NCBI RefSeq assembly: GCF_000739775.1 | Contig: NZ_BBJH01000003.1 | Location: 124,001 to 188,000 of the forward strand | Length of the DNA: 64,000 bases | Reading direction: 5' to 3' | Origin: Paraburkholderia heleia NBRC 101817 | GTDB taxonomy: Bacteria; Pseudomonadota; Gammaproteobacteria; Burkholderiales; Burkholderiaceae | Shown: positions 32,099-63,311 of the stretch, piece by piece | Numbering within the stretch: position 1 is the first letter of the stretch | Layout: each line of letters begins with the position of its first letter | Program-made: the position numbers and the translations under genes | Notes under the pieces: generated by a model | Database searches by the model: none | Told to the model about the DNA's origin: nothing | Seen by the model: only the letters and a program-made list of their open reading frames with translations

Positions 32099-32125
32099 TG
32101 TCGCTTCTGCGCAATTGCTCGTCGC
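32099..32125 (+). promoter_or_regulatory. 21-bp-spaced direct repeat upstream of choX (candidate GbdR site)
   Basis: Half-sites TGTCGC (32099) and CGTCGC (32120) start exactly 21 bp apart with TGCGCAA between them. The following sequence (GTCGCAATT, then a T tract, then CAACCATGT) also closely resembles the region upstream of the ABC ATPase gene at 63,285-63,351. The arrangement suits an AraC-family dimer. Confidence 0.6.
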
Positions 32126-32216
32126 AATTGCTACGTTGGTCGGCTTTTTGCCGGACAACCATGTGTCATGAGGCTTCATGACCCTGCGACGCAGTTCGAT
32201 TCCTGAGGAGATGACG

Positions 32217-33167
32217 ATGTGCCGATTCCCCCTGCTTAAGACAGGCGCGCTCGCGTGCGCCGCGATGCTCTGCACCGGCGCCTACGCGGCGGATCCCGCC
32301 GCGTGCAAGGACGTGCGCTTCGCCGACGTCGGCTGGACCGATATCGCGGCGACCACGGGCGTGGCGTCGACGATCCTGGGCGCGCTCGGCTATACGCCGA
32401 CCAAGACGATCGCCTCGGTGCCGATCACGTTTGCAGGGCTCAAGAGCAAGCAGATCGATGTGTTCCTCGGCTACTGGTCGCCGACCATGGACCCGATCAT
32501 CGAGCCGTTCACGAAGTCGGGCTCGATCAAGGTGCTCGCGACGCCGAATCTCACGGGCGCGAAATATACGCTTGCTGTCCCCGATTACGTATATCAGGGC
32601 GGCCTCAAATCGTTTCAGGACATCGCGAAATACGCGGACAAGCTGCAAGGGCGCATCTACGGCATCGAACCCGGCAACGACGGCAACGCGCTGATCCAGA
32701 AGATGATCGGCGCGAATCAGTACGGGCTCGGCAAATTCAAGCTCGTCGAATCGAGCGAGGCGGGCATGCTCGTGCAGGTGAACCGTGCCGTGCGCGAGAA
32801 GCAGTGGATCGTGTTCCTCGGCTGGGAGCCGCATCCCATGAACGTGCAGATGAAGATCGACTATCTCTCCGGCGGCGATGCGGTGTTCGGGCCTGACTAT
32901 GGCGCGGCGCGTGTGCTGACCGCGGAACCGCCCGACTACGCCGCGCGCTGCCCGAACGTGGCGAAATTCGTTTCCAACCTGCAGTTCACGACCGCCATCG
33001 AGAACCATTTGATGGTGCCGATCGCCAACAAGGAGGACCCGAACAAGGCCGCCGCCGACTGGCTGCGCAGCAACCCGCAGGTGCTCGACAACTGGCTCGC
33101 CGGCGTGACCACGCTGGATGGCAAGCCGGGCCTGCCTGCCGTGCGCGCCTCGCTGGGTGTGCACTGA
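32217..33167 (+). CDS. choX: Choline-binding periplasmic protein (ChoX-type)
   Basis: A 316-residue exported binding protein of the OpuAC/ChoX family. Signal peptide: MCRFPLLKTGALACAAMLCTGAYAA. The mature protein starts DPAACKDVRFADVGWTDIAATTG and has GYTPTKTIASVPITFAGLKSKQIDVFLGYWSPTMDP, a ChoX hallmark; Trp and Tyr residues for the quaternary-ammonium cage are present. Of three nearby ATGs I choose 32217, six bases after GAGGAG. No permease or ATPase is adjacent, so it probably docks onto the importer whose ATPase starts at 63398. Both BetI- and GbdR-type sites lie upstream. Confidence 0.9.
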   Translation: MCRFPLLKTGALACAAMLCTGAYAADPAACKDVRFADVGWTDIAATTGVASTILGALGYTPTKTIASVPITFAGLKSKQIDVFLGYWSPTMDPIIEPFTKSGSIKVLATPNLTGAKYTLAVPDYVYQGGLKSFQDIAKYADKLQGRIYGIEPGNDGNALIQKMIGANQYGLGKFKLVESSEAGMLVQVNRAVREKQWIVFLGWEPHPMNVQMKIDYLSGGDAVFGPDYGAARVLTAEPPDYAARCPNVAKFVSNLQFTTAIENHLMVPIANKEDPNKAAADWLRSNPQVLDNWLAGVTTLDGKPGLPAVRASLGVH

Positions 33168-33266
33168 CGCGCCCTGGTCCGCGGCGAAGGCCGCGGACAT
33201 CCCTGCGGTACATCCCTATTTGCGCAGCAATATTGGTTGATTAGCGTTCAAAAGAGGAGGAGGCAG

Positions 33267-34913
33267 ATGGAGCAAGCGGGAATCGGTACGCATGGCGCAC
33301 AGGAGAGCGCCGCACGAGGCGGTCATGGCCATGCGCTGCAGCGCGGCCTCACATGGAGAGATGCATTCTGGGTGACGAGCGGCGTGCCCGCGGGCGTGCT
33401 GTTCACGATCGGCGGCGTTTGCGCGACCATCGGCCAGCCGGCCTGGGCCATCTGGATCGCGTCGATTACGATGGGCCTCGTGCAAAGCGCCACCTACGCC
33501 GAGATCTCCGGGCTCTTTCCGCACAAGTCGGGCGGCGCTTCGGTGTACGGAGCAATCGGCTGGGTCCGTTACAGTAAGTTGATCGCGCCGGTTTCCGTAT
33601 GGTGCAACTGGCTCGCGTGGTCGCCCATGCTGGCGCTGGGCTGCGGACTCGCCGCGAACTATGCGCTTGCCACACTGTTTGCGCCCGAAGCGGCGATCCT
33701 GCAGTGGCACTGGACGCTTGCCAACCTGGACTTCATCAAGCCAGGTCTCACGCTGCGCATCAACGCGACGTTCCTGATCGCCGCGGCATTCCTGCTCATC
33801 ACCTTCCGGCTTCAGCACAGCGGCGCGTCGAAGGCCGCGAAAACGCAGAAGATTCTGGGCATTGCGTCGCTCACGCCGCTGTTGATCGTCGGGCTCGTGC
33901 CCTTCGTCACGGGCGATGTGCCCGCAAAGCATCTTTTTCCGCTGCTGCCGCTCGGGCATGACGCGCACGGCAATCTCACCGCTGCGGTGTTCGGCGCCTG
34001 GAACGGGCAGGGCGCGGTCATGGCGCTGGGCGCGATGTTCATGGCGGGATGGGCATCGTACGGCTTCGAAACGGCGGTGTGCTATACGCGCGAGTTTCGC
34101 GACCCACGGCGCGATACGGCGAGGGCGATATTCTGGTCGGGCGCGCTTTGCCTCGTCGTCATGACGCTCGTTCCGCTCGCGTTTCAGGGCTCGCTGGGTA
34201 CGGCGATGATGCTCGATCCGCGTATTGGCGACGGCACGGGTGTGGGCACCGCGATGGCCGCGATGGTGGGCGGCGGCGCCTGGGTGGGCAACGCCGTGGT
34301 GGTGATGCTGATGCTCTCCATCTTGCTGATCGTGATGACGTCGATGATGGGCTCGTCGCGCACGCTCTACCAGGCTTCGGTGGACGGCTGGCTGCCGCGC
34401 TACCTTTCGCGCGTGAACGAGCATGGCGCGCCGACGGCGGCGATGTGGACCGATCTGGGTTTCAATCTCATCCTGCTCGCGATGTCGGACTATATGACGG
34501 TCCTGTCGATCTCGAACGTCTGCTACATGTTGTTCGTTTTCCTGAATTTGCAGTCGGGCTGGATTCATCGTATGGATCGCGGCGCGTGGGCACGGCCGTT
34601 TCGTTGTCCGACGTGGCTGCTCGCGCTGGGTGCGCTGTGCGGGTATGCGAATCTCGTGTTCGTGGGCGCAGGCGCCAATCTGCAAGGCGAGGGGACGCTG
34701 CGCAATGGCCTCATTGCCATGCTGCTGATCGTGCCGGTGTTTGCTTTCCGGCACTACTGGCAGGATCGCGGGCGGTTTCCGGCAGGCAGCGCGCTCGATA
34801 TGGAAGTGAGCGTGCCGGTGCGCAACCGGTGGCTGAATCTTGCGCCTTATGGCGCGCTCATTGCTGCGGCGCTGACGGTTGCGGTTTCGCATTGGCTGGC
34901 CGCTTTGGTCTGA
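33267..34913 (+). CDS. APC-superfamily permease (choline-locus amino acid/amine transporter)
   Basis: A 548-residue membrane protein with about 12 or more hydrophobic segments. APC features: WVTSGVPAGVLFTIGGVCATIGQPAWAIW in the first helix, YAEISGLFPHKSGGASVYGA, and SRTLYQASVDGWLPRYLSRVNEHGAPTAA. GAGGAGG precedes the ATG at 33267. Because it sits between choX and betA it likely moves choline, ethanolamine or another amine; the sequence does not settle which. It ends at a strong terminator. Confidence 0.85.
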   Translation: MEQAGIGTHGAQESAARGGHGHALQRGLTWRDAFWVTSGVPAGVLFTIGGVCATIGQPAWAIWIASITMGLVQSATYAEISGLFPHKSGGASVYGAIGWVRYSKLIAPVSVWCNWLAWSPMLALGCGLAANYALATLFAPEAAILQWHWTLANLDFIKPGLTLRINATFLIAAAFLLITFRLQHSGASKAAKTQKILGIASLTPLLIVGLVPFVTGDVPAKHLFPLLPLGHDAHGNLTAAVFGAWNGQGAVMALGAMFMAGWASYGFETAVCYTREFRDPRRDTARAIFWSGALCLVVMTLVPLAFQGSLGTAMMLDPRIGDGTGVGTAMAAMVGGGAWVGNAVVVMLMLSILLIVMTSMMGSSRTLYQASVDGWLPRYLSRVNEHGAPTAAMWTDLGFNLILLAMSDYMTVLSISNVCYMLFVFLNLQSGWIHRMDRGAWARPFRCPTWLLALGALCGYANLVFVGAGANLQGEGTLRNGLIAMLLIVPVFAFRHYWQDRGRFPAGSALDMEVSVPVRNRWLNLAPYGALIAAALTVAVSHWLAALV

Positions 34914-34936
34914 GTTGGCTTCAGTGTTGGTGTTGG

Positions 34937-34980
34937 CGGCATCGTGCGGGCGGGTTGCCCGTGCGGTGCCGCGTTTTTTT
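34937..34980 (+). terminator. Rho-independent terminator after the APC permease
   Basis: A 15-bp stem with a few G-U pairs (arms at 34937-34951 and 34957-34971) is followed by TTTTTTT at 34974-34980. Confidence 0.8.
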
Positions 34981-35040
34981 GTGTGCCTGACGAGGTGCTT
35001 TTTGTCGGACTGATCGCGCGCTGAATGCTCGACGAAACCG

Positions 35041-35087
35041 AAAAAAAGCCGGAGTCGGCCCGCGGATCCTTGCGTGCCGTCTCCGGC
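35041..35087 (-). terminator. Rho-independent terminator of the betIBA operon
   Basis: On the minus strand an 11-bp stem (arms at 35077-35087 and 35048-35058, one mismatch) is followed by TTTTTTT at 35047-35041, 14 bp after the betA stop. Confidence 0.82.
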
Positions 35088-35100
35088 CCATCAGCGTTGC

Positions 35101-36834
35101 TTAAAGCGTCACGCTGTGCGCGCGGATTTTCTCCCTATGCGCCGCGCCATCCGGTGCAGGAAAATCCGCCCCACGCGCCGGTGCCCCGTGCGCCACGAAA
35201 TACGGCGCATTCGAACGCGCCAGCGCCTCACGCCCGCGTATGCGGTCCGCGATCTTCTCCGCGATCATGATGGTCGGCGCATTGAGGTTGCCGGTGATGA
35301 TGCGCGGCATGATCGACGCGTCCACCACGCGCAGGCCGTCGAGTCCGTGCACGCGGCCTTCGCCATCCACCACGGCCATGTCGTCGTAGCCCATCGCACA
35401 GGAACACGACGGGTGATAGGCGGTTTCCGCGCGGTTGCGCACGAAGGCATCGATCTCGGCGTCGGTCTCGAGCGCCGCGCCGGGGCTCAACTCGCGTCCG
35501 CGAAACCGGTCGAGCGCGGGCTGCGCGATGATCTCGCGGGTCATGCGAATCGCGTCGCGGAACTCGCGCCAGTCGAGCGCCTCGGCCATGTAGTTGAAGA
35601 GAATCGACGGATGCTGGCGCGGGTCGCGCGAGCGCAGCTTCACACGCCCGCGGCTCGGCGAGCGCATCGAGCCCACGTGCGCCTGGAAGCCATGCATCTT
35701 GATCGCATTGCTGCCGTTGTAATTGATCGCAACGGGCAAGAAGTGATATTGAAGGTTTGGCCACGGATCGTCGTCGCGCGTGCGAATGAAGCCGCCCGCC
35801 TCGAAATGATTGCTCGCGCCAATGCCGGTTCCGCGCAGCATCCATTCAAGGCCGATAGCCGGCTGATTGCGCATCAGGAGCGCGGGGTAGAGCGACACGG
35901 GCTCCTTGCACGCGTACTGCATGTACATCTCCAGGTGATCCTGAAGATTCTGCCCGACGCCCGGCAGATCGAGCACAACGGGAATGTCGAGCTCGCGCAG
36001 CCACGCGCCGGGGCCGACGCCCGAGCGCTGCAGGATCTGCGGCGAGGCGATCGCGCCCCCGCACAGCAGCACTTCGCGGCGCGCGTAGCGCGTCACGCGC
36101 GCGGGCCCGTCGAGAAAGACGACGCCGCACGCCCGCTTGCCGCTGAACAGAATGCGGTCCGTTACCGCGTGCGTGACGATGTCGATGTTGGGCCGATGCC
36201 TGGCCTGATCCAGATAGCCGCGTGCGGTGCTCGCGCGCCGGCCCCTGGCCGTCACGGTGCGATCCATCGGCCCGAAGCCTTCCTGGCGGTAGCCATTGAG
36301 GTCGTCGGTGCGCGGATAACCCGCCTGCACGCCCGCCTCGATCATCGCCTCGAAGAGCGGGTTCACGCCCGGCTTGCTTGTGCTCACGTGAACCGGACCT
36401 TCGCCGCCGTGATAGTCGTTCGCACCGATGTCGCGCGTTTCGGCCTTGCGGAAATAGGGCAGGCAGTCCAGATAGCTCCAGTTTTCGAGCCCCTTGCGTT
36501 CGGCCCAGCCGTCGTAGTCGAGCGCGTTGCCGCGGATATAGCACATGCCGTTAATGAGCGACGACCCGCCCAGGCCCTTGCCGCGCCCGCATTCCATGCG
36601 CCGGTTGTTCATGTGCGGCTCGGGATCGGTTTCGTAGGCCCAGTTGTAGCGGCGGCCCTGCAACGGGTAGGCGAGCGCCGCGGGCATCTGCGTGCGGAAA
36701 TCGAAACGGTAGTCGGGACCGCCTGCTTCGAGCAGCAGCACCGTCGCGTCGCGATCCTCGGTGAGGCGCGTGGCAAGCACATTGCCCGCCGATCCCGCGC
36801 CGATGATGATGTAGTCGTACTCTTGCGCTGCCAT
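35101..36834 (-). CDS. betA: Choline dehydrogenase
   Basis: A 577-residue FAD enzyme of the GMC family that oxidises choline to betaine aldehyde at the inner membrane. Seen: dinucleotide fold [20 protein letters not shown] at the N-terminus, [20 protein letters not shown], second signature [17 protein letters not shown], active-site His in [11 protein letters not shown] and the closing [16 protein letters not shown]. The start at 36834 is fixed by homology and lies 11 bp after betB. The last 40 residues are a polar, poorly conserved tail. Confidence 0.94.
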
Positions 36835-36845
36835 GCAGGACTCCC

Positions 36846-38315
36846 TCAGAAAACGGGCTGATACGGTCCCAGTTCCACCTGGACGGATTTGAGGCGCGTG
36901 TAGTGCTCGAGCGTGGTGATGCCGTTTTCGCGGCCCACGCCCGACTGCTTGTAGCCGCCCACGGGCATTTCGGCGGGCGACTCGCCCCACGTGTTGATCC
37001 AGCAAATGCCGGCTTCGAGCCGATGAATGACGCGGTGCGCGCGAGCGAGGCTTTCGGTCACGACGCCGGCGGCCAGACCGTACAGCGATTCGTTGGCGCG
37101 TGCGATCACTTCGGCTTCGTTAGCGAAGGCGAGAATGCTCATCACCGGGCCGAAGATCTCCTCCTGCACGATGCGCATGTCGTCGCGGCAACCGGAAAAT
37201 ACGGTGGGCTGCACGTACTGCCCGTGCGCGAAACCGCCCTGCGTGAGGCGCGCGCCGCCCGCGATCAGCCGCGCGCCTTCGCGCTTGCCGCTTTCGATAT
37301 AGCCGAGCACCTTGTCGAGCTGCGCGGCGCTCGCGAGCGGTCCGAAGTTGGTGGCGGGATCGGTGGGGTTGCCTACGCGGATGCGCTTCACGCGTTCGAG
37401 CACCCGCGCCTCGAATGCGGCAATCACCGATTGATGGACGAACACGCGCGTGCCGTTGGTGCACACCTGGCCGGCGCTGAAGAAGTTGGCGGTCACGGCG
37501 ATATCGGCGGCGCGCTCGAGGTCGGCGTCTTCGAAGACGATGAGCGGCGACTTGCCGCCCAGTTCCATTGTGACTTCCTTGAGCGTGGAACCGCCCGCGG
37601 CCGCCATGACCTTCTTGCCCGTTTCGACGCCGCCCGTAAACGAAATCTTCTCGATACCGGGATGCACGCTCAGCATGGCGCCCACGCGGCCGTCGCCATG
37701 GACCACGTTGAACACGCCGGGCGGCACGCCTGCCTCGATATAGATCTCCGCGAGTTTCGTGGCCGAAAGCGGGGTGATCTCGCTCGGCTTGAAGATCATC
37801 GCGTTGCCGGCGGCAAGCGCGGGCGCCGATTTCCAGCAGGCGATCTGCAACGGATAGTTCCATGCGCCGATGCCCGCCGTGACGCCCAGCGGCTCGCGCC
37901 GCGTGTAGACGAACGAGCTCTCGCGCAGCGGGATCTGCTGGCCCTCGAGCGCGGGTGCGAGGCCCGCGTAGTACTCGATCACGTCGGCGCCCGTGGCGAT
38001 GTCCACACTGCGCGTTTCGGCGATGGGCTTGCCCGTGTCGCGGGTTTCGAGCGCCGCGAGTTCGTCGTTGCGCTCGCGCAGCAGCTCGACCGCGCGCCGC
38101 AGCACGCGCGAGCGCTGCATGGCCGTCATGGCGGCCCACACGCGCTGGCCGGCTCGCGCCGATTGAACGGCGCGGTCGATGTCGGCGGCGCTCGCTTGCT
38201 GCACCGTGGCGAGCCTGGCGCAGGTGGCGGGATCGTAGGTGTCGAACGTCTCGCCGCTGGTGGCGTCGCGATAGGCGCCGCCGATGAAGAGGCGTTGCAG
38301 GGGAAAGAGGGACAT
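36846..38315 (-). CDS. betB: Betaine aldehyde dehydrogenase
   Basis: A 489-residue NAD(P)-dependent aldehyde dehydrogenase that turns betaine aldehyde into glycine betaine. Motifs: [30 protein letters not shown]-type [21 protein letters not shown], catalytic Glu in [19 protein letters not shown], catalytic Cys in [14 protein letters not shown] and C-terminal [13 protein letters not shown], all of the BetB kind. It is the middle gene of betI-betB-betA, 19 bp from betI. Confidence 0.95.
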
Positions 38316-38334
38316 CGCTTGGCTCCGGGCCGGG

Positions 38335-38949: not shown

Positions 38950-38995
38950 GGTCATTCCGGACGATTCGGGGAGGTTTCCACTCTAGGTATTTTTT

Positions 38996-39152: not shown

Positions 39153-39179
39153 TGTCGCGTTAGCGCCAGCGCGTGTCGT
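39153..39179 (+). promoter_or_regulatory. 21-bp-spaced direct repeat upstream of the porin gene (candidate GbdR site)
   Basis: Half-sites TGTCGC (39153) and TGTCGT (39174) start exactly 21 bp apart with GCGCCA between them at the position where choX has GCGCAA. The distance to the porin ATG is 122 bp from the second half-site. Confidence 0.55.
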
Positions 39180-39295
39180 GTCTGCGCAAGTCGGGCGAGA
39201 TTTGGACTTGTACGTTTTGATCCACCGCGCAAGGCGCCATGCGTTCCCGGCGCGGCCCGACAACCTGTATCGCCAGACCAGAGAGACCCGACACC

Positions 39296-40438: not shown

Positions 40439-40641
40439 GCGGGCGGAGAGCGTTTCTTCGCCGCAAACACCTCGGGAAAACCCGCGGTAAAGGCCATGCG
40501 TTGCGCCCGCCAGGGTCGGCGCAAGCCCCCGCTGGCGCGGCCGTCCAACGGCGATGGCGTTTTTGTTCTATCGGCTGCCATGGCCTCTTTGGTCTACTTG
40601 TACCCAAGCTCATCCATGCGCTCAGCGCGAAGGGAAGTCAG

Positions 40642-46688: not shown

Positions 46689-47313
46689 AATGAAAGACCC
46701 CCTGCCGGTCGCAGAGCGCGTCGTCGGCGTGCGCCTGGAATCGCCGCTCGTCGGCGCAACGGATCTGATCAAGGCGCAGGAAGGGCGCGCCTCGAAGGCG
46801 TTCGCCATGCGCGAGCTGCCGTTCCGCGACCTCGTGAACGTGCGCGGCGAATTGAGCGACCCGGCGTTCGTCGCGGCGTTCGCAAGCGTCGTGGGCTGCG
46901 AGCCGCCGCCCGCGCCCAACACCGTCGCGCGCAGCGACCACTACGACGTGCTCTGGCTCGGACCCGACGAATGGCTCGTGCGCTCGCTCGCTGCGGTGCA
47001 AACCGGCATGCTCGAAGCGAAGCTCACCGCCGTGCTCGGCGGCGCATATGCGGCGGCCGTGGATGTGGGCAGCGGCAACACGGTGATCGAGATCGACGGC
47101 ACGCGAGCGCGCGACGTGCTCTCGCGCGGCTGCCCGCTCGATCTGCATCCACGCCTCTTCAAGCCGGGTCAATGCGCGCAGAGCGTGTATTTCAAGGCTT
47201 CGATCGTGCTCATTCCCACGGGCGACGACCGCTTCGAAATGGTCGTGCGCCGCAGCTTCGCCGATTATTTCTGCCGCATCATGGTCGACGCCGCGGCGTC
47301 GGTCGCGCCATGA
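46678..47313 (+). CDS. soxG: Sarcosine oxidase, gamma subunit
   Basis: A 211-residue small subunit with SoxG hallmarks DHYDVLWLGPDEWLV and RDVLSRGCPLDLHPRLFKPGQCAQS, then RRSFADYFCRIMVDAA at the end. GAAGGAG lies inside the 3' end of soxA. Its stop overlaps the folB-like start by the ATGA arrangement. Confidence 0.94.
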   Translation: MLNEMKDPLPVAERVVGVRLESPLVGATDLIKAQEGRASKAFAMRELPFRDLVNVRGELSDPAFVAAFASVVGCEPPPAPNTVARSDHYDVLWLGPDEWLVRSLAAVQTGMLEAKLTAVLGGAYAAAVDVGSGNTVIEIDGTRARDVLSRGCPLDLHPRLFKPGQCAQSVYFKASIVLIPTGDDRFEMVVRRSFADYFCRIMVDAAASVAP

Positions 47314-47807
47314 AGATCGTCGATGCGGCGTTCGAGCCGGCGCTCGGCGCGCTGGGCGCGATCGGTGCGCTCGGTGCTCACGACGAGCCGCGCGGACGCG
47401 GCTGGAGCGTATTCGTCGAAGCGTTGAGTGTGCCGGCGCGCATCGGCATCTACCCGCACGAGCACGGTTCCCCGCAGCCGCTCGTGATCGACGCAGAGCT
47501 GGGTTATCGATGCATGCCGCGCGAAAAGCGTGCGGCGGGCGAAGCCGGCGACTGGATCGACTACGACGGCTACTGCACGCGCCTTGCCGACTTTCTCGGG
47601 CGCAAGCCGCACACGCGGCTGCTCGAAACGCTGGTGGCGGACATGGCTGCGTTTTCGTTTCGCGAATGGCCGGCGCTGGAAACGCTCAGGCTCGCGGTGC
47701 ACAAGCCGAAGATCCGGCCGGGTACTCGGCGCGTGGGCGTGGCGCTCGACTGGACACGCGCCGACTATCGGCAATGGATGCGGGCAGAAGGAGGCGGGCA
47801 GGCGTAG
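47310..47807 (+). CDS. folB: FolB-like dihydroneopterin aldolase of the sarcosine operon
   Basis: A 165-residue protein. Residues about 30-160 are the FolB domain (VFVEALSVPARIGIYPHEHGSPQPLVIDAEL; the Glu equivalent in YPHE and the Lys-rich HKPKIRPG are kept). The first 30 residues are an extra extension containing GALGAIGALGAHDE, from a GC-rich degenerate repeat. Translation is coupled to soxG. A folate-biosynthesis step here makes sense because sarcosine oxidase consumes tetrahydrofolate to form 5,10-methylene-tetrahydrofolate. It is likely a second copy, the housekeeping folB lying elsewhere. Confidence 0.82.
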   Translation: MKIVDAAFEPALGALGAIGALGAHDEPRGRGWSVFVEALSVPARIGIYPHEHGSPQPLVIDAELGYRCMPREKRAAGEAGDWIDYDGYCTRLADFLGRKPHTRLLETLVADMAAFSFREWPALETLRLAVHKPKIRPGTRRVGVALDWTRADYRQWMRAEGGGQA

Positions 47808-47828: not shown

Positions 47829-47855
47829 TGTCGGCGTAAAGCAAGGGCGCGTCGC
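47829..47855 (+). promoter_or_regulatory. 21-bp-spaced direct repeat upstream of fdhA (candidate GbdR site)
   Basis: Half-sites TGTCGG (47829) and CGTCGC (47850) are 21 bp apart with AGCAA at the place of GCGCAA. It lies 132 bp before the fdhA ATG, just after the folB stop. Confidence 0.5.
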
Positions 47856-47981
47856 TTTTTGCACATCGTCGTATGCGGCGGGCAGGCTACGCTCGAAGCA
47901 TCGTTGTCTTGCGCGGCGTTTGCGCGAGGCAACGCCACTAGCAAGCAGCGTTGCGAGCTGCATCGAACAGGAGACAGCGAG

Positions 47982-49259: not shown

Positions 49260-50294
49260 TCAGACGTGAACAGTCGCAGGCGCAAGAACCGCGGCAGGAG
49301 GCGCATCCAAACCAGAAAGCGGCGCAATCCGCTTCCGCCGTTCCCCGGTAGGCGCACTCCCAAACGCATCCCGATAGCTCTTGCTAAAGTGACAAGCGGA
49401 CTGAAACCCGCAAGCCATCGTAATCTGCATAATCGACATATCGGTCTGCAGCAGCAACTCCCGCGCACGCCGCAAGCGCAGCGTCAAATAATAATGAGTC
49501 GGCGTCATGCCGAGATGCTCATGAAAGAGCCGCTGCAGCTGCCGTTGCGACATATTCGCAAGCCGCGCTAACTCCTCACGCGAAAGCGGCTCCTCGATAT
49601 TGTTCTCCATGAGCGAGATCACTTCGAAGAGCGACTTGTTCGCGGACCCGAGCCGCGCGACGAGCGGCATGCGCTGCTGAGCGGACGTATCGCGCACATG
49701 CTCGACCACGAACTGCTCGGCGATCTGCGTTACGCGCGCCGTCCCCACGCGCGCCGTGATGAGGTGCAGCATCATGTCGAGCGGGGCGACGCCGCCGGTG
49801 CAGGTCACGCGGTCGCGGTCGATGACGAAGAGCTCCTTGAGAAAACGCGTGGACGGAAACTCCTCTTTCAGCGCCGACATGTTCTCCCAGTGAATCGCAC
49901 AAGCATACCCGGCTAGCAGCCCGGACTTCGCAAGCGCATAGGTTCCCGTGCAAAGACTCCCAAGCGCAACCCCCATGCGCGCGAAGCGGCGCAGCGCAGC
50001 GAGATGGGCGGGCGTGGTGGCGCGCTGCACGTCGATACCGCCGCAGACGAACACGATATCGGGCTGCCCCACGCATTCGGCCGGACCGGTGTCGATGGAA
50101 AGCCCATTGCTCGACGCGACCGGGCCGCCCTCCGGGCTAATGATCGACCACCTGTAAAGCGGCTGCCCGCTCAGGTAGTTAGCCATACGAAGAACTTCGA
50201 TGGCGTTCGTGAACGCGATCATCGTGAAGTCGGGCAGCGGCATGAAAGCGAAATGCGCTAACGACGCTGTGCGATCCGGCAGCATGGGGGACAT
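49260..50294 (-). CDS. gbdR: GlxA/AraC-family activator of betaine catabolism (GbdR-like)
   Basis: A 344-residue activator: an N-terminal DJ-1/PfpI-like domain (PDFTMIAFTNAIEVLRMANYLSGQPLYRWSIISPEG; ALGSLCTGTYALAKSGLLAG) and a C-terminal AraC DNA-binding domain (LARLANMSQRQLQRLFHEHLGMTPTHYY; MACGFQSACHFSKSYRDAFG). This matches GbdR, which responds to glycine betaine and dimethylglycine. Two ATGs nine bases apart (50294 and 50285) are possible; the second is better spaced from AAGGA. Divergent from glyA. It probably activates the surrounding operons. Confidence 0.9.
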   Translation of the reverse strand: MSPMLPDRTASLAHFAFMPLPDFTMIAFTNAIEVLRMANYLSGQPLYRWSIISPEGGPVASSNGLSIDTGPAECVGQPDIVFVCGGIDVQRATTPAHLAALRRFARMGVALGSLCTGTYALAKSGLLAGYACAIHWENMSALKEEFPSTRFLKELFVIDRDRVTCTGGVAPLDMMLHLITARVGTARVTQIAEQFVVEHVRDTSAQQRMPLVARLGSANKSLFEVISLMENNIEEPLSREELARLANMSQRQLQRLFHEHLGMTPTHYYLTLRLRRARELLLQTDMSIMQITMACGFQSACHFSKSYRDAFGSAPTGERRKRIAPLSGLDAPPAAVLAPATVHV

Positions 50295-50738
50295 TTCCTT
50301 GAATTCGGTTGCCTGCTGTCCAGTGCAGGCCCGGTGAGGCCGGAAAGCCGGCTACGCTACCGTAATTTTCGAATTTGGCGGGTCCAGTGTGCCATGCGGC
50401 AAAACCCTGAGTCATCTGGACAAAAAAGCCGGACGCGGGAAAAAACGAAGGGCGCGGGATTGGTGCACTGCGATGCACGATAAATAATCCGGATCGGGAA
50501 ACATGGGGCACGGCGCACCGTGAGCGGGCGCGAGGCGCAGCCACTTGTGAAAATTGGACGCGGATGGCGGAAAAGGAAAAGAACGCGTCTGAATTTCGAC
50601 GTTGAGCGCCAATTCGAACGACAAGAATAGAACCGTCGGTCCCCAGCCGGTCAAGCGGGTTCAAAGCCGCTCTCGAGCCAGTCGCGACGGGGCCTCCAGC
50701 ATTGCAGGAAGTCCTTCATTCATCGTCACGGAAGCCCT
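50295..50738. other. Divergent control region between gbdR and glyA
   Basis: 444 bp with no gene. On the minus strand at 50596-50623 there is TGTCGT...GCGCTCAA...CGTCGA, an imperfect, 22-bp-spaced relative of the 21-bp repeats found at other promoters of the island, about 115 bp before glyA. I looked for a glycine riboswitch and did not find convincing elements. Confidence 0.5.
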
Positions 50739-55798: not shown

Positions 55799-55801
55799 AC
55801 C

Positions 55802-57730
55802 ATGAACCCGACCTGGCTCATTACCGCGCTGCTGTGGGTGTCGATGGCGGGGCTCGCGTTCGCACTCGCGAAGCGTGCCGCTTTCTGGCGGGTGGGGCGC
55901 GCGGCTGCGCCCGGCTCCGTCGGCGTCGGCAAGCTGTTCAGTATCCCGAAGCGTTATTTCGTCGATCTGCACCACGTGGTGGCGCGCGACCCGTACATCG
56001 CCAAAACGCACGTCGCCACCGCGGGTGGCGCCATCGCGGCGCTCGCACTCGTGTTCATCAACTACGGGTTCGCGATCTACTCGCCGTGGCTCGACAAGCT
56101 GATCTTTCTCGCGGCGCTCGCCATGCTGACCGGCGTGGTGTTCGTGTGGCGGCGCCGCCACGCGAAAGCGGTGCCGGCGCGTCTCTCGCGCGGGCCCTGG
56201 AATACGTTGCCCTGGCTGCTCGGTTCGTTCGCGCTGGGCGTGGCGCTCTTCACGGTCGTGCCGGCAGGCGCCATGTCGGGCGGCTTCGCGGTACTTTGCG
56301 CGGGGCTGATCGCAGTGGGCGCGTTCGCGATGACGTTCGGCGCAGCGCGCGGCGGCCCGATGAAGCATGCCGTGGCGGGCCTGTTGCACCTCGCGTTCCA
56401 TCCGCGCCAGGAGCGCTTTGCGGCCACGCGCGAGAGTTGGACCGGCAACGGCACGGCTACGCCGCCCACGGCGCTGAAGCTCCCCGACATCGAAGAGAAG
56501 CAGGAATACGGCGTGGCGAAACCCGTCGAGTTTCGCTGGAACCAGCTGCTGAGCTTCGACGCCTGCGTGCAGTGCGGCAAATGCGAGGCCGCGTGCCCGG
56601 CGTTCGCCTCCGGCCAGCCGCTCAACCCCAAGAAGCTGATTCAGGATCTCGTGGTCGGCATGGCGGGCGGCACCGATGCGGCCTATGCGGGCAGCCCCAC
56701 GCCCGGCATCAAGGTCGGTCAACATGGCGGCGCGCCGCATGGGCCGATCGTTTCGGGCCTGATCGAAGCGCAAACGCTGTGGTCCTGCACCACCTGCCGC
56801 GCCTGCGTGCAGGAGTGCCCGATGCTGATCGAGCACGTGGATGCCATCGTCGATATGCGCCGCAACCAGACGCTGGTGCACGGCGAAGTGCCGGGCAAAG
56901 GCCCCGAGGTGCTTGCGAATCTGCGCGAGACGGGTACCGCGGGCGGCTACGACAAGGCGGCGCGCTACGACTGGTCGGTCGATCTCAACGCGCCTGTGGC
57001 GCAGCCGGGCAAGCGCGTGGACATACTCGTGGTGGCGGGCGAGGGTGCGTTCGACATGCGCTATCAGCGCACGCTGCGCGCGCTCGTGAAGGTGCTCAAC
57101 AAGGCGGGCGTGAACTACGCGGTGCTGGGCGCGCGGGAAACCGACACGGGCGACGTGGCGCGCCGCCTCGGCGACGAAGCCACTTTCCAGCAGATGGCCA
57201 GGGAGATGATGGCGACGCTCGCCACGCTGGACTTCGCGCGTATCGTGACTGCCGATCCGCACGTCATGCACAGCCTGCGCAACGAGTACCGCGCGCTTGG
57301 CGGGCGTTACGAAGTGCTGCATCACACCACTTACCTCGCGGAACTCGCCGCGACCGGGCGCATCGCACCCAAGGCCGTGCAGGCGCTCACGGAAAAGCGC
57401 ACGACGTATCACGATCCCTGCTACCTGGGCCGCTATAACGGCGAGACCGAAGCGCCGCGCAAGCTGCTCAAGACCATTGGCATCAAGGTCGTGGAGATGG
57501 ACCGCAACGGCATGCGCGCACGCTGCTGCGGCGGTGGCGGCGGTGCGCCGCTCACCGATATCCCGGGCAAGCAGCGCATTCCCGACATCCGCATCGCCGA
57601 CGCGCGCGCAGTCAATGCGGAGGTGGTCGCCGTGGCCTGCCCGCAGTGCACGGCGATGCTCGAAGGCGTGGTCGGCCCGCGGCCCGAAGTGCTCGACGTG
57701 GCCGAACTCGTGGCCGCCTCGCTGGAGTGA
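55802..57730 (+). CDS. dgcB: Dimethylglycine catabolism iron-sulfur protein DgcB
   Basis: A 642-residue membrane protein. The N-terminal 200 residues hold several hydrophobic segments; two [4Fe-4S] ferredoxin motifs follow (CVQCGKCEAACP, CTTCRACVQECP), then two heterodisulfide-reductase-like CCG regions (THDPCYLGRYNG...RCCGGGGGAP; ACPQCTAML). It would move electrons from DgcA/ETF to the quinone pool. The gene starts 3 bp after dgcA. Confidence 0.93.
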   Translation: MNPTWLITALLWVSMAGLAFALAKRAAFWRVGRAAAPGSVGVGKLFSIPKRYFVDLHHVVARDPYIAKTHVATAGGAIAALALVFINYGFAIYSPWLDKLIFLAALAMLTGVVFVWRRRHAKAVPARLSRGPWNTLPWLLGSFALGVALFTVVPAGAMSGGFAVLCAGLIAVGAFAMTFGAARGGPMKHAVAGLLHLAFHPRQERFAATRESWTGNGTATPPTALKLPDIEEKQEYGVAKPVEFRWNQLLSFDACVQCGKCEAACPAFASGQPLNPKKLIQDLVVGMAGGTDAAYAGSPTPGIKVGQHGGAPHGPIVSGLIEAQTLWSCTTCRACVQECPMLIEHVDAIVDMRRNQTLVHGEVPGKGPEVLANLRETGTAGGYDKAARYDWSVDLNAPVAQPGKRVDILVVAGEGAFDMRYQRTLRALVKVLNKAGVNYAVLGARETDTGDVARRLGDEATFQQMAREMMATLATLDFARIVTADPHVMHSLRNEYRALGGRYEVLHHTTYLAELAATGRIAPKAVQALTEKRTTYHDPCYLGRYNGETEAPRKLLKTIGIKVVEMDRNGMRARCCGGGGGAPLTDIPGKQRIPDIRIADARAVNAEVVAVACPQCTAMLEGVVGPRPEVLDVAELVAASLE

Positions 57731-57734
57731 ATCG

Positions 57735-58904
57735 ATGAATACCCTTAAACGAATCGATCCGCGCCGCCCCTTCGTCGTCACGGCGGCGGGCCTCAAGCGC
57801 ATCACGCTGGGGGCGGAGGGCAGCGCGGACGCGAGCGCCGCGCAATGGCTCGCGCAGCACGCGCACGCAAGCGCAGCGAAGCCACGCCGCGTGATGAGCC
57901 ATCCAGATCATGTTCTGCTCGTGGTCGCGCACGCCGAACGCGGCGCGCTCGACGATCACGCGTGCCAGGCCGTTGCCGCCGCCGCACTGCTCGCCGATGC
58001 GCAAACCGAAGTGGCGTTGCTGGTGTTCGGTGAGCTGAAGGACGATGCCGGGGCGCTCGGCGTGGACAAGCTGATCGAACTGCCCGGGTTCGAGCGCCGC
58101 ACGTTCGCGCCTGAAAGCGCGTTGCGCGCGCTGCAGGCCTGCGCGGCGGCGCTTGCGCCGAAGCACGTATTCCTGCCCGACAACGCCAGCGGCGACGGCG
58201 ACCTCGGACGCCGCTATGCGGCCGCCGCCGGTGCGAGCGTGGCGACCCATGTGGTCGAGATCGATCCGAAGCATGTGGGCGTGTATGAACAGGCGAAGCG
58301 CGCATGGGCCGTGCGCTCGCTGCCCGATGTGATCCTCCTTGCGCCGAACGCGGTCGAGGCGAAGCTACCCTTCGTCGGCGCGGGCGAACGCCTCGCGGGC
58401 GATTTCATCCGGCCGGCTACCGACCTCGCATCGCCATACCAGGACCTGGGCCTCGAATCCATCGATGCTGCACAGGTTGCGCTCGAAGAAGCCGATTTCA
58501 TCGTCTCCGCAGGCAACGGCGTAACCGACATTGCGGCGTTCGGGCGGCTCGCGGGCGCATTCGGCGCTGCCATCGGCGCGAGCCGCGTGGCGGTGGACAA
58601 CGGCCACTTCACGCGCGACAAGCAGGTGGGCGCAACAGGCAAGACGGTCGAGGCGAGTGTGTATATCGCGTTCGGCATTTCGGGCGCCGTGCAGCACTTG
58701 CAGGGCATCAAGGACTGCCGCCATGTGATCGCCGTGAATCTCGACGGCAGTGCGCCGATTGCGAAGCGCGCGAACCTGACCGTGGTCGGCGACGCGCAAG
58801 GCACGATCGCCGCGCTGATCGAGCAGGTGCAAGCCGCACGCGCAAAGCCTGGCGGGGCGAGCGCCGTACGTGACGAAACGCATTCCGCAGGAGTCGCCGC
58901 ATGA
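57735..58904 (+). CDS. etfA: Electron-transfer flavoprotein alpha subunit, dgc-associated
   Basis: A 389-residue ETF alpha subunit. The FAD-binding end is clear: IVSAGNGVTDIAAFGRLAGAFGAAIGASR, GATGKTVEASVYIAFGISGAVQHLQGIKD and VAVNLDGSAPIAKRANLTVVGD. The N-terminal region is longer than in the housekeeping EtfA. It follows dgcB by 4 bp and overlaps etfB by ATGA, so it is dedicated to dimethylglycine oxidation. Confidence 0.92.
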   Translation: MNTLKRIDPRRPFVVTAAGLKRITLGAEGSADASAAQWLAQHAHASAAKPRRVMSHPDHVLLVVAHAERGALDDHACQAVAAAALLADAQTEVALLVFGELKDDAGALGVDKLIELPGFERRTFAPESALRALQACAAALAPKHVFLPDNASGDGDLGRRYAAAAGASVATHVVEIDPKHVGVYEQAKRAWAVRSLPDVILLAPNAVEAKLPFVGAGERLAGDFIRPATDLASPYQDLGLESIDAAQVALEEADFIVSAGNGVTDIAAFGRLAGAFGAAIGASRVAVDNGHFTRDKQVGATGKTVEASVYIAFGISGAVQHLQGIKDCRHVIAVNLDGSAPIAKRANLTVVGDAQGTIAALIEQVQAARAKPGGASAVRDETHSAGVAA

Positions 58905-59713
58905 ACGCACGCCATGATCCTCAACGCGGCATCGAGCGCATTGCCGTGCTCGTTTCGGCGGGGCGTCACCCCGTGAGCGGCACGCCGCGCTACAGCCGCA
59001 ACGATGCGCTCGCGCTCGAGCTCGCGCGAACGCTGGCCGAACGGCATCACGCGCGTCTCGACGTGCTGCACGCAGGCGACGCCGCCGACCCCGCGCTCGC
59101 CGAATACCTCGCGCTAGGCGCGCACGAAGTGGAGGTGCTGGCCTGCGCGCTGTCCGGCGACGCGGCGCGCATGCTCGCCGAGCGCGTGCGCGGCTACGAC
59201 CTCGTGCTGACCGGCACGCGCGCCGAGGGCGCGCACGACAGCGGCATGCTGCCGTACCGTGTGGCGGCCGCGCTGGGCGCGCCGATCGTGGGCGGCGCAG
59301 TCGACATCGACGTGGACGTCGCGACGCGCGCCGCCGTGGTGCGGCAGTTCCTGCCCAAAGGCCTGCGCCGTCGCGTGCAGACCACGCTGCCCGCAGTGAT
59401 CGCCGTTCATCCGCTCGCGAACGCCCAGCCCCGTTACGCCTGTGCACGGCTGCGCGCGGGCGCGGTGCGGCCCGCAAGCGCAACACGCGCGAGCGGCGCC
59501 GAATCGACCGAAGCCTGCGCATGGACGGTCGGCCCGATCGAGCGTAAACCCGTGCGGCTGGCCGCGGCGGAGAAGCGCTCGGGCCACGCGCGCATGCTTT
59601 CGGCGACCACGACCGAAAGCCGGGGCGGCAACGTCGTAATTGAAGGGAGTTCGGTCGAAAAAGCACAAGTGATCCTCGCGTATTTGCGCGAGCATCAACT
59701 CATCGATTACTGA
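58901..59713 (+). CDS. etfB: Electron-transfer flavoprotein beta subunit, dgc-associated
   Basis: A 270-residue ETF beta-type subunit: RIAVLVSAGRHPVSGTPRYSRNDALALELARTLAE near the N-terminus, then YDLVLTGTRAEGAHDSGMLPYRVAAALGAPIVGG and FLPKGLRRRVQTTLPAVIAVHP. It is more divergent than housekeeping EtfB, as seen in dgc clusters. The 3' end may carry a weak GbdR-like site for gbcA. Confidence 0.88.
   Translation: MNARHDPQRGIERIAVLVSAGRHPVSGTPRYSRNDALALELARTLAERHHARLDVLHAGDAADPALAEYLALGAHEVEVLACALSGDAARMLAERVRGYDLVLTGTRAEGAHDSGMLPYRVAAALGAPIVGGAVDIDVDVATRAAVVRQFLPKGLRRRVQTTLPAVIAVHPLANAQPRYACARLRAGAVRPASATRASGAESTEACAWTVGPIERKPVRLAAAEKRSGHARMLSATTTESRGGNVVIEGSSVEKAQVILAYLREHQLIDY
59632..59658 (+). 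promoter_or_regulatory. Weak 21-bp-spaced repeat before gbcA, inside etfB
   Basis: CGTCGT (59632) and GGTCGA (59653) share GTCG at 21-bp distance but lack the central GCGCAA. It is 110 bp before gbcA, within the 85-132 bp range of the stronger sites. Confidence 0.3.
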
Positions 59714-59762
59714 TTTTGCTGGCCTGTCGGCAACGAACTGGGATGAAAAATCCGGAGCACAC

Positions 59763-61004
59763 ATGAAAGTAACGGCAGAGATTCGCGCGCTGATCGAGCG
59801 CCGCCAAGCGGGTTACAGCCTGGAGGCGCCTTTCTACCTGAGCGAGGAGATTTTCGCGCTCGATATGGAGACGATTTTCCGGCAACACTGGATCGAGGTC
59901 GCCACGGAAGCGGAAATTCCCGAACCGGGCGACTACGTGACCGTCGATCTGGCGGGCGACTCGATCCTGATCGTGCGCGACGACGACATGCAGGTGCGCG
60001 CGTTCCACAACGTCTGCCGGCACCGCGGCGCGCGCCTGTGCAACGAAGAGAAGGGGTCGGTGGGCAATATCGTTTGCCCGTATCACAGCTGGACCTACAA
60101 CCTCACCGGCGCGCTGATGTTCGCCGAGCACATGGGCGAGCAGTTCGACCGCTGCAAGCACAGTCTCAAGCGCGTGCACGTGGAAAATCTCGCGGGCCTG
60201 ATCTTCGTGTGTCTCGCCGAAGAACCGCCCGCCGACTTCGCGCTCATGCGCGCCGAGATGGAGCCGTACTTGCTGCCGCACGATCTGGCGGGCTGCAAGG
60301 TCGCCGCGCAGGTCGACATCGTCGAGAAAGGCAACTGGAAGCTCGTGATGGAAAACAATCGCGAGTGCTATCACTGCGTGGCGAATCATCCCGAGCTGAC
60401 GATTTCGCTCTACGAGTACGGCTTCGGCTACGCGCGCACGGAAGCCAACGCCGAAGGCATGGACGCGTTCGAGCGCACCTGCAACGAGCGCGCGAAGCAG
60501 TGGGAAGCGATGGACCTGCCATCGGTCGAGATCGAAAAGCTTCTGGACGTCACGGGTTTTCGCACGCAGCGCCTGCCGCTCGACCGTTGTGGCGAGTCGC
60601 AAACGCTGGACGCGAAGGTCGCCTCGAAGAAGCTGCTCGGCGAGTTTCGCACCGCCGATCTCGGCGGCCTCTCGTTCTGGACGCAGCCGAACTCGTGGCA
60701 TCACTTCATGAGCGATCACATCGTGTCGTTTTCCGTAATTCCGCTTTCCGCCGGTGAAACGCTCGTGCGCACGCGCTGGCTCGTTCACAAGGACGCGCGC
60801 GAAGGCATCGATTACGACGTGGAGAACCTCACCGCCGTGTGGAACGCGACCAACAACCAGGACCGCACGCTCGTGGAGTATTCGCAACGCGGCGCGGCGA
60901 GCAGCGCGTATGAACCGGGTCCGTATTCGCCGTACACGGAAGGGCTCGTCGAAAAGTTCTCGGCCTGGTATATCGGCCGCCTCGCCAGGCAGATTGGCGC
61001 ATAA
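59763..61004 (+). CDS. gbcA: Glycine betaine demethylase, Rieske oxygenase subunit
   Basis: A 413-residue Rieske non-heme iron oxygenase that removes one methyl group from glycine betaine as formaldehyde, giving dimethylglycine. The Rieske cluster ligands are in CRHRGARLC and VCPYHSW; the mononuclear iron site starts with NWKLVMENNRECYHCVANHPEL, with Asp in a later helix. GGAG lies 7 nt before the ATG. gbcB follows by 47 bp on the same strand and supplies electrons. Confidence 0.94.
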   Translation: MKVTAEIRALIERRQAGYSLEAPFYLSEEIFALDMETIFRQHWIEVATEAEIPEPGDYVTVDLAGDSILIVRDDDMQVRAFHNVCRHRGARLCNEEKGSVGNIVCPYHSWTYNLTGALMFAEHMGEQFDRCKHSLKRVHVENLAGLIFVCLAEEPPADFALMRAEMEPYLLPHDLAGCKVAAQVDIVEKGNWKLVMENNRECYHCVANHPELTISLYEYGFGYARTEANAEGMDAFERTCNERAKQWEAMDLPSVEIEKLLDVTGFRTQRLPLDRCGESQTLDAKVASKKLLGEFRTADLGGLSFWTQPNSWHHFMSDHIVSFSVIPLSAGETLVRTRWLVHKDAREGIDYDVENLTAVWNATNNQDRTLVEYSQRGAASSAYEPGPYSPYTEGLVEKFSAWYIGRLARQIGA

Positions 61005-61051
61005 CGCACACGCAAAGCGAAAAAAATGCGGCAAAGAGAGCGGAGTTTGAC

Positions 61052-62197
61052 ATGATGCGAGACGCGGCCCAATTCAATCCACTCGATCCCGGTGACAGCC
61101 GGGTGACGCGCCCGGCGTTCTGGGGCGCGCTGCCCGAGCGGTGGACGAGCGAGGTCGAGGAGACCCTCGTGTGCTGCCACGTATGGCAGGAAACGCACGA
61201 CGTGAAGAGCTTTTTCCTGCGCTCGCCGCAGGGCCGCACATTCTCGTTCGAGCCGGGGCAGTTCCTTACGCTCGAACTCGAGATCGACGGCGAGGCCATC
61301 AACCGGTGCTATACGATTTCGTCGTCGCCCGCACGGCCTCATACCATTTCCATTACGGTCAAGCGCGTGCCGGGCGGCAAGGTGTCGAACTGGCTGCACG
61401 ACAACCTGCGCCCGGGCGTTTCACTGCGTGTGCTCGGGCCGGCCGGCGAATTCACGTGTGCACGTCACGCCGCACCGAAGTATCTGTTTCTTTCCGCGGG
61501 GTCCGGCGTCACGCCGCTGATGTCGATGAGCCGCGCGCATCACGATCTCGCGGAGGACCGCGATATCGTTTTCGTGCACAGCGCCCGCACCCCCGACGAC
61601 ATCATCTTCGCGCGCGAACTGGAACTGATCGCTTCGAGCCGCGCGAATTTCCGCACGTCGTTCGTCTGTGAAAGAGTGGGCGCGCGCACCGACTGGTCGG
61701 GCGTGACGGGCTTTCTCTCCCTGCCGCTGCTGAAGCTGATTGCCCCGGACTTCATGGAGCGCGAGATCTTCACCTGTGGGCCCGCGCCCTACATGAAAGC
61801 CGTGCGCGATCTGCTCGACGAAGCCGGCTTCGCGCGCGAACGCTACCACGAAGAGAGTTTTTCGTTCGAAACGCTTACGACGCAAGCCGAGGCGCCGGTG
61901 GAGCAGCCGCCGGCGGAATCGTCCGCCGAAACGGCCAGCTTCAAGATCACCTTCGCGAAGAGCCGCCGCGAGATTCAATGCGGCACACACCAGACCGTGC
62001 TCGATGCCGCGCGCCAGGCTGGCGTGCGCCTGGCTTCCTCGTGCAGCCAGGGCATGTGCGGAACCTGCAAGGTCAAGCTCGTTTCGGGGCAGGTGGATAT
62101 GAAGCATAGCGGCGGCATACGCCAGCGCGAAATCGATCAGGGCATGGCGCTGCTGTGCTGCTCGAAACCGCTGTCCGACCTCGTCGTCGACAAATAG
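61052..62197 (+). CDS. gbcB: Glycine betaine demethylase, reductase subunit
   Basis: A 381-residue ferredoxin-NAD reductase. Order of domains: FAD-binding barrel (RCYTISSSPARPHTISITVKR), NAD-binding fold (YLFLSAGSGVTPLMSM; FTCGPAPYMKAVRDLL), then a C-terminal plant-type [2Fe-2S] domain (SSCSQGMCGTCKVKL...LLCCSKPLSD). It passes electrons from NADH to GbcA. Confidence 0.93.
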   Translation: MMRDAAQFNPLDPGDSRVTRPAFWGALPERWTSEVEETLVCCHVWQETHDVKSFFLRSPQGRTFSFEPGQFLTLELEIDGEAINRCYTISSSPARPHTISITVKRVPGGKVSNWLHDNLRPGVSLRVLGPAGEFTCARHAAPKYLFLSAGSGVTPLMSMSRAHHDLAEDRDIVFVHSARTPDDIIFARELELIASSRANFRTSFVCERVGARTDWSGVTGFLSLPLLKLIAPDFMEREIFTCGPAPYMKAVRDLLDEAGFARERYHEESFSFETLTTQAEAPVEQPPAESSAETASFKITFAKSRREIQCGTHQTVLDAARQAGVRLASSCSQGMCGTCKVKLVSGQVDMKHSGGIRQREIDQGMALLCCSKPLSDLVVDK

Positions 62198-62203
62198 CGC
62201 GCG

Positions 62204-62230
62204 CGTCGCGCAACGACAAGAACACGTCGT
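62204..62230 (+). promoter_or_regulatory. 21-bp-spaced direct repeat upstream of the betaine-binding protein gene (candidate GbdR site)
   Basis: Half-sites CGTCGC (62204) and CGTCGT (62225) are 21 bp apart with GACAA in the centre. It begins 7 bp after the gbcB stop and its second half lies 85 bp before the next ATG. Confidence 0.5.
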
Positions 62231-62309
62231 AAATCGACGTTAGCGGCAGATTGTGGCGGGCGAATCTGCATAGGCACGGGGCGCTTGCCCATATCACAGG
62301 AGATCGACC

Positions 62310-63170
62310 ATGAAGCTGACTGCAAAACTTGTTTGGACCGGTGTGTTATCGGCGATGATGTGCTTGAGCGCCCCGGCGTTTGCCGACGGCAAGCCGACCT
62401 TGAAGATCGGTTATGTCGAAGGCTGGGACGACAGCGTCGCGACCTCCAACGTGGCCGCGCGCATCATCGAGAAGCGCTATGGCTATCCGGTGCAGCTCGT
62501 GCCCGTGGCCGCGGGCATCATGTGGCAGGGCGTGGCGCGCGGCGACCTCGACGCGACGCTTTCCGCCTGGCTGCCCGTCACACAGGGCGCGTACTGGGCG
62601 CAATTCAAGGACAAGGTGGTCGACCTCGGCACGAACTTCCCGGGCGCGAAGATCGGCCTCGTGGTGCCCGACTACGTGAGCGCGAAGAGTATCGCCGATC
62701 TCAACGCGGACAAGTCGGCGTTCGGCGGCCGCATCGTCGGCATCGACGCCGGCGCGGGCGTGATGCGCAAGACCGACGAGGCCGTCAAGCAATACGACCT
62801 CAGCTACAGCGTGATGCCGAGTTCGGGCAGCGCGATGACGGCTGAGCTGGCGCGTTCGGTGGGGTCGAAGAAACCGGTGATCGTCACGGGCTGGACGCCG
62901 CACTGGATGTTCGCCAAGTACAAGCTGCGCTTCCTCGACGATCCGAAGAACGTCTACGGCGCCGCGGAGCACGTGGACAACGTGGCCAACCCCGAACTCG
63001 AAAAGAAGGCCCCGCAGGTGGTCGCGTTCCTGAAGAGCTTCCAGTGGAAGCCGGGTGAGATCGACAGCGTGATGCTCGCGATCCAGAACGGCGAGAAGCC
63101 CGATGCCGCGGCCGACACGTGGATCGCCGCGCATGGCGATCGCGTGAATGCCTGGGCAGGCACGCAGTAA
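62310..63170 (+). CDS. Glycine betaine-binding periplasmic protein (OpuAC/ProX-type)
   Basis: A 286-residue exported protein of the OpuAC family. Signal peptide: KLTAKLVWTGVLSAMMCLSAPAFA. Mature start DGKPTLKIGYVEGWDDSVATSNVAARII; ligand-site aromatic residues are in GIMWQGVARGDLDATLSAWLPVTQ, GAYWAQF and VTGWTPHWMFAKYKLRFL. Betaine or carnitine is the likely ligand. CAGGAG lies 7 nt before the ATG. Together with ChoX it could share the ABC importer that starts downstream. Confidence 0.9.
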   Translation: MKLTAKLVWTGVLSAMMCLSAPAFADGKPTLKIGYVEGWDDSVATSNVAARIIEKRYGYPVQLVPVAAGIMWQGVARGDLDATLSAWLPVTQGAYWAQFKDKVVDLGTNFPGAKIGLVVPDYVSAKSIADLNADKSAFGGRIVGIDAGAGVMRKTDEAVKQYDLSYSVMPSSGSAMTAELARSVGSKKPVIVTGWTPHWMFAKYKLRFLDDPKNVYGAAEHVDNVANPELEKKAPQVVAFLKSFQWKPGEIDSVMLAIQNGEKPDAAADTWIAAHGDRVNAWAGTQ

Positions 63171-63284
63171 TCGCAGGCAAACAACGGCAGGGGGCCCGAA
63201 GCGGCCCCGCCAGACCCGTGCCCGCTACGGGCCGCGCGCTGCGATTGTGCTTATGCAGCATGTCATTTTTCTGATGCGGCGCCG

Positions 63285-63311
63285 TGTCGCTTTTGCGCAA
63301 GCGTCTGTCGC
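63285..63311 (+). promoter_or_regulatory. 21-bp-spaced direct repeat upstream of the ABC ATPase gene (candidate GbdR site)
   Basis: Half-sites TGTCGC (63285) and TGTCGC (63306) are identical and 21 bp apart, with GCGCAA in between. This is the best copy in the window. The sequence after it (AATT, T tract, GCAACCATGT) resembles that of choX. Confidence 0.65.

Follow-up and report, generated by a model that had tools for sequence, protein, structure and literature searches.

The window analysed here is a stretch of 64,000 nucleotides, positions 124001–188000 of contig C108 in an 8.0-Mb genome, and from 32 kb onwards it carries an island of choline and glycine-betaine genes. In order these are choX, a gene resembling a trimethylamine N-oxide (TMAO) permease, a porin gene, an open reading frame (ORF) at 40554 for which no family match was found, soxB, soxA, soxG, fdhA, gbdR-A, glyA, an M19 dipeptidase gene, dgcA- and dgcB-like genes, etfA, etfB, gbcA and gbcB. 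The island ends with a second choline-type binding protein gene, referred to below by its start position, 62310, and with choV (63398–64000, plus strand), the first gene of a predicted choV-choW-gbdR-B operon, which is cut by the window end. The names dgcA/dgcB and soxD are taken from the Pseudomonas pathway; the matches of the ORFs so named were to a FadH/OYE-like flavoenzyme and an iron-sulphur protein.

Two genes for regulators accompany the island. gbdR-A (49260–50294, minus strand) encodes a GlxA/GATR-type AraC-family protein, which is the best candidate binder within the window, while gbdR-B (G000:C108:189504–190496; L103:4504–5496) lies 1.5 kb past the window end. Three further genes were observed in passing: the ORF behind choX (33237–34913) scored 741 bits as a TMAO permease, against an NCBIfam cut-off of 690; an ORF between soxG and fdhA (46971–47807) carries a FolB (dihydroneopterin aldolase) domain; and purU, for formyltetrahydrofolate deformylase, is found 3′ of the island (L103:9802–10794, minus strand) and fits a one-carbon pathway.

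Tandem boxes upstream of the island genes

A preliminary description had reported five promoters marked by half-sites 21 bp apart, and inspection of the letters bore this out. The form YGTCGY-N15-YGTCGY occurs on the plus strand before choX, for a choline ABC transporter binding protein (32099–32140), before the porin gene located ahead of the 40554 ORF and soxBDAG (39153–39194), before the choline/betaine-type binding protein gene 62310 (62204–62245) and before choV-choW-gbdR-B (63285–63326). The copy before fdhA, for glutathione-independent formaldehyde dehydrogenase (47829–47870), reads TGTCGG...CGTCGC with the same 21-bp period. Distances from the repeat end to the start codon, given as 80–127 bp, were measured at 79–126 bp: about 91 for choX (ATG at 32217), 116 for porin (39296), 126 for fdhA (47982), 79 for 62310 and 86 for choV (63398). 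A GCGCAA or GCGCCA between the half-sites was likewise found in the three copies named for it, at 32099, 63285 and 39153, so that at choX, for example, TGTCGC..GCGCAA.. is repeated after 21 bp.

With first bases aligned, each copy has the form N-G-T-C-G-N, N8, AA, N5, which is then repeated. By this comparison of letters the repeats are one predicted operator type, a tandem box of the GATR/ArgR kind (half-site near TGTCGC, 15-bp spacer, 21-bp period), in which the GCGCAA is the GNAA part of the ARG box. Among distinct 42-mers, AA stands at positions 15–16 of the distal box in 30/30 for glyA (whose operator is described below), 42/43 for fdhA, 24/24 for 62310, 5/5 for choV and 2/2 for choX, with CA or AG in its place in all 18 porin sequences.

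The window also holds pairs absent from the earlier account, at 117 and 20450 (with G in the last place) on the plus strand and at 21576, 44164 and 57150 on the minus strand. Only 44164 among these five has AA at box positions 15–16, and none has the hexamer NANNNT at +58, a feature discussed below. Could the whole set have arisen by chance from a frequent GC-rich hexamer and be conserved by descent alone? The bare exact pattern is indeed not enriched in the 8.0-Mb genome (117 + 112 = 229 occurrences, against 392 in the backwards control), and close relatives will have any sequence in common. At 21-bp spacing, however, the window holds eight YGTCGY pairs on both strands together; 193 other spacings average 0.80 pairs and never exceed five. 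Five of 14 island start codons have a pair 79–127 bp upstream, four of them in the exact form, for which the genome rate predicts 0.01 before those start codons; the 14 were picked by hand and the range was taken from the finding itself, which makes this figure post hoc. Spacing and position before start codons, and not the bare pattern, are the unexpected features. The five direct repeats are real, and we regard an origin by chance and descent as scarcely credible, also in view of the promoter, codon and held-out tests below.

Conservation and a fixed distance to the −10-like hexamer

The repeats had been expected to be kept in related genomes, which holds for the 62310, porin and fdhA sites and for an operator at glyA, and fails for choX. 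The 62310 site was found in 28 of 30 loci, in the same register and at −98 to −145 relative to the match start (misses, L119 and L122); the porin site in 21 of 30, where the nine misses (L232–L240) may be paralogous porins; and the fdhA site in 52 of 62 (51 of 59 by a stricter count). Outside the closest relatives the choX site at 32099 is not kept: it occurs in 3 of 30 loci, its own included. Elsewhere, in other genera, choX follows gbdR-B directly on the same strand, which plausibly explains why the site is rarely kept; in the window lineage choX seems to have acquired an operator copy of its own. Over a 70-bp promoter stretch, choX and choV match at 43 positions, compared with 18 to 37 for other pairs.

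The sixth intergenic operator, at glyA (50565–50606, plus strand; TGGCGG..AA..CGTCTG), had been missed in the preliminary description. Alignment of the gbdR-A/glyA intergenic region revealed a single strongly conserved block, near glyA, reading TGGCGG-N8-AA-N5-CGTCT with AAGAAT at +58. It was present in 68 of 68 loci by a search pattern composed after the alignment had been seen, with TGTCGG or TGTCGC in place of TGGCGG in 12. Paraburkholderia xenovorans LB400 (L099) carries both this operator and that of fdhA. The inverted pair at 50596, 22 bp apart and previously listed as a weaker form of the site, exists as letters and sits in the spacer of this glyA promoter, but it is not conserved in the alignment and is missing from many relatives; it was rejected as an operator, the conserved element being the plus-strand block at 50565.

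All six promoters have a −10-like NANNNT hexamer at a fixed distance from the operator start: 58 bp at choX (AACCAT, 32157–32162), porin (TACGTT, 39211–39216), glyA (AAGAAT, 50623–50628), 62310 (GAATCT, 62262–62267) and choV (AACCAT, 63343–63348), and 59 bp at fdhA (TACGCT, 47888–47893). Elsewhere between offsets 44 and 79, NANNNT occurred in at most two of these six at any one offset. The hexamer recurs at 58 bp (59 for fdhA) in 147 of 151 distinct orthologous sequences, comprising glyA 50/50, 62310 25/25, choV 6/6, choX 3/3, porin 20/20 and fdhA 43/47, in a test that was run only after offset 58 had been noticed. One offset across promoters without common descent argues against the chance reading. 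If the hexamer is the −10 element, we infer that the operator would start near −70 and that its proximal box, at about −49 to −34, would replace the −35 element, which suggests promoters of an activator-dependent type.

The weaker pair before gbcA (59632–59673, plus strand), also present as letters, falls within the final 30 codons of etfB, has GG in its distal and AA in its proximal box, and is likewise followed at 58 bp by a hexamer, GAGCAT (59690–59695). Among 75 etfB sequences, the 13-codon window with the highest synonymous conservation was codons 245–257 (59633–59671), where the commonest codon has a mean share of 0.966, against 0.72 in the median window. Nearly all of the codons there (GTC GTA ... 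GGG ... GTC GAA AAA GCA CAA GTG) are invariant, and the codon for His-265 is CAT in every case, providing the T of the hexamer; the frozen letters are both half-sites and the hexamer (59628–59695). The earlier suggestion of a weak site before gbcA thus gains support from synonymous codons frozen exactly at this place, so that we refer to it as a putative gbcA operator. The reading of 59632 as mere coding sequence was dropped after this test, and the same frozen codons are hard to square with chance repeats.

Genome and family scans

For scanning we used a profile, R1, of 66 columns built without structure from 31 training sequences. These include the window's own sites and sites from several of the scanned genomes, so most genomes in the scans count as out of sample and the promoter classes as in sample. 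In its own 8-Mb genome, where 150 of 2102 first-look candidates were scored (stricter filters were used for the family scan), R1 placed the six intergenic promoters at ranks 1–6 with E values from 8.3e-7 to 0.008, while the seventh match (E 1.0) and all worse ones were partial; the gbcA site was missed. A matrix built from the copies had been proposed as a check, and the profile does separate the six intergenic promoters from the rest of the genome, which the bare pattern alone does not.

When each promoter was in turn left out of a 42-nt matrix, no non-training window position scored above the held-out 62310, choV, choX or porin site, and one and three window positions did so for glyA and fdhA, respectively. 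With 66-nt matrices the count was zero throughout except for fdhA, which was beaten by 130 non-training positions because its −10-like hexamer is 1 bp further away. Recovery of held-out sites is again not what chance repeats would give.

We also applied R1 to 120 Burkholderiaceae genomes, of which 45 encode GbdR-A and GbdR-B, the two being sorted by identity to B (52–56% versus 69–100%). At E ≤ 0.05 the profile matched 60 genomes, namely all 45 with gbdR and 15 of the 75 without it. The best E value was ≤ 6.2e-5 in 45/45 gbdR genomes and about 0.0045 among those lacking gbdR. Where gbdR is absent, the target genes may be missing as well, so what co-occurs is the whole system. By position, 134 of 137 matches to E 0.001 fall at the same promoters. 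Of these, 42 are divergent to gbdR-A and 9 lie on its fdhA side; 31 precede the 62310 orthologue, 18 the porin gene and 3 choX; another 31, from 27 genomes, stand 1.9–3.6 kb ahead of gbdR-B in its own orientation. The other 3 matches are left without assignment. The gene after the operator was a betaine gene in 29/29 relatives' loci retained from the family scan (62310 orthologue 16, glyA 7, choV 4, gbcA 1 in L268 and dipeptidase 1 in L283). The operator keeps to the head of the betaine operon even when the head gene changes.

Outside the family, R1 produced no convincing match when run on 13 gammaproteobacterial genomes that encode GbdR relatives, the best E value being 0.033. Either the operator has changed in its letters along with the protein or its geometry is different there, so the operator can be equated with that of Pseudomonas in type alone.

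Candidate regulators and known counterparts

Overall, we consider it very likely, from the sequence comparisons above, that the repeats are operators in a regulon for choline and glycine betaine whose activators are AraC proteins of the GATR type, from the GbdR group. GbdR is the probable regulator, and its two co-orthologous copies are both candidates. GbdR-A and GbdR-B are 55% identical, and at the cut-off applied every one of the 45 genomes with either protein has both; in the tree they are sisters (100/97), and the forks to other GbdR-like groups have no firm order. Against the NCBIfam GbdR equivalog NF052371 they score 380 bits (A) and 373–375 bits (B), both below its cut-off of 480. Two gammaproteobacterial GbdRs above that cut-off (L166 and L167) are 51–52% identical to A and 48% to B, compared with 38–39% to the next paralogue. 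GbdR-A itself is 99% identical to its counterpart in Paraburkholderia silvatlantica and 97% to that of P. nodosa. The preliminary reading of the repeat as the GbdR operator of this lineage is supported in that one predicted AraC-type (GATR) operator is common to the island promoters, is conserved and tracks gbdR; it needs amending in that GbdR is two proteins and that this kind of operator is not peculiar to the lineage, the Pseudomonas sites being alike.

A different GATR protein might be the main binder, for example the ArgR-like third paralogue (280 bits) at G000:C50:37695–38660 (L104). It adjoins genes for arginine/ornithine succinyltransferase and a HisP-type transporter, with a single TGCGCAA-type box (L104:4591, minus strand) between its ORF and those genes. 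The Pseudomonas ARG box has the same geometry: tandem TGTCGCN6GNAA copies 5 bp apart, with a 21-bp period and the same AA positions (PMC10963909). It belongs to arginine genes, and its tandem spacing is described as variable in P. alloputida, unlike the fixed spacing here. We think such a binder improbable, given that every operator lies at betaine or choline genes, R1 matched nothing in the C50 region and the operators occur in the same 45 genomes as GbdR-A and GbdR-B.

The work could instead be split by site, with one protein reading TGTCGC..GCGCAA (choX, choV and porin) and the other TGTCGG/TGGCGG..AA (fdhA and glyA). These two letter types track the promoter groups in all orthologues seen, and the two proteins have been retained together in 45/45 genomes. 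Nonetheless, the recognition helices are nearly identical (SQRQLQR in A and SQRHLQR in B; SACHFSK and SPCHFSK), and the 62310 sites mix both letter types, leaving this division rather unlikely. Compared with their gammaproteobacterial GbdR relatives, A and B have changes in common, SQR/LQR for SRR/LER and a C before HFSK.

Under the preferred reading, a shared GbdR-type operator, two direct ARG-box-like half-sites 21 bp apart would lie on one helix face, each taken by one subunit of a dimer. The −35 place would fall where the proximal half-site ends, with the −10 hexamer at a fixed 58 bp from the operator start, and the ligand-bound regulator would hold RNA polymerase at promoters lacking a −35 element, in class II-like activation. 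By analogy with Pseudomonas, the ligand would be glycine betaine or dimethylglycine. Seven promoters would be served: choX, porin (sox side), fdhA, glyA (dgc-etf side), gbcA (inside etfB), 62310 and choV-choW-gbdR-B, with transcription presumably starting downstream of each hexamer. gbdR-B is the third gene behind the operator at 63285, an arrangement (choV, choW, gbdR-B) that recurs in other genera; lying in an operator-headed operon, it would boost its own synthesis, and positive feedback is predicted. Directly upstream of gbdR-B in other genera we found no forward-strand match with the expected AA, and an operator at that place was dropped in favour of one located upstream of choV.

More tentatively, the duplicated GbdR may form a two-step amplifier, a possibility we would not put at even odds. 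GbdR-A, which has no operator ahead of it and has a sigma-54-like promoter in most relatives, would act first and open choV-choW-gbdR-B; GbdR-B would then amplify uptake, catabolism and itself, all targets having the 58-bp geometry and one operator being written into etfB codons. The sigma-54-like pattern, TGGCA-N6-TTGC, precedes gbdR-A in 60 of 80 loci by pattern count. In the stretch upstream of gbdR-A (50295–50420), compared with relatives L023–L102, the window clade keeps TGGCAC and has lost TTGC (TGGCACACTGGACCC).

The Pseudomonas GbdR regulon has reportedly been studied by Hampel et al. For P. aeruginosa, a sigma-54-like promoter before gbdR and a cascade from NtrC/CbrB to GbdR have been proposed in the relevant part of PMC3170909. 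As far as the pertinent sections of PMC5806209, PMC3170909 and PMC12323605 describe that regulon, it resembles ours in pathway genes, related regulator and operator class; ours differs in having two co-orthologous regulators and a putative gbcA operator inside etfB. Also in P. aeruginosa, the passages of PMC5806209 on CdhR describe direct repeats with a GGTCGC half-site and a 15-bp spacer under an AraC/GATR regulator, and call the sites of GbdR, SouR, CdhR and ArgR very similar. The CdhR operator serves carnitine rather than betaine genes and, being class I according to its authors, lies at −216 to −112 of caiX, whereas the operators here abut the −10 region. The main text of a P. aeruginosa binding atlas (PMC8041468) does not mention GbdR, ArgR or CdhR, and among open PMC papers we found no dedicated study of choline/betaine use in Paraburkholderia, Burkholderia or Caballeronia.

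Judged by sequence likeness, the system is the form that a known Pseudomonas switch takes in the Burkholderia family; the present analysis adds the fixed 58-bp distance between operator and −10-like hexamer, the glyA operator and codon-freeze support for the gbcA site. It supplies a testable choline/betaine regulon for Paraburkholderia, Burkholderia and Caballeronia, with an activator promoter defined by a fixed distance from operator to −10. The putative gbcA site would be a natural example of an operator overlapping coding sequence, and the duplicated regulator pair with a common site type would offer a clean case for how paralogous activators share work.
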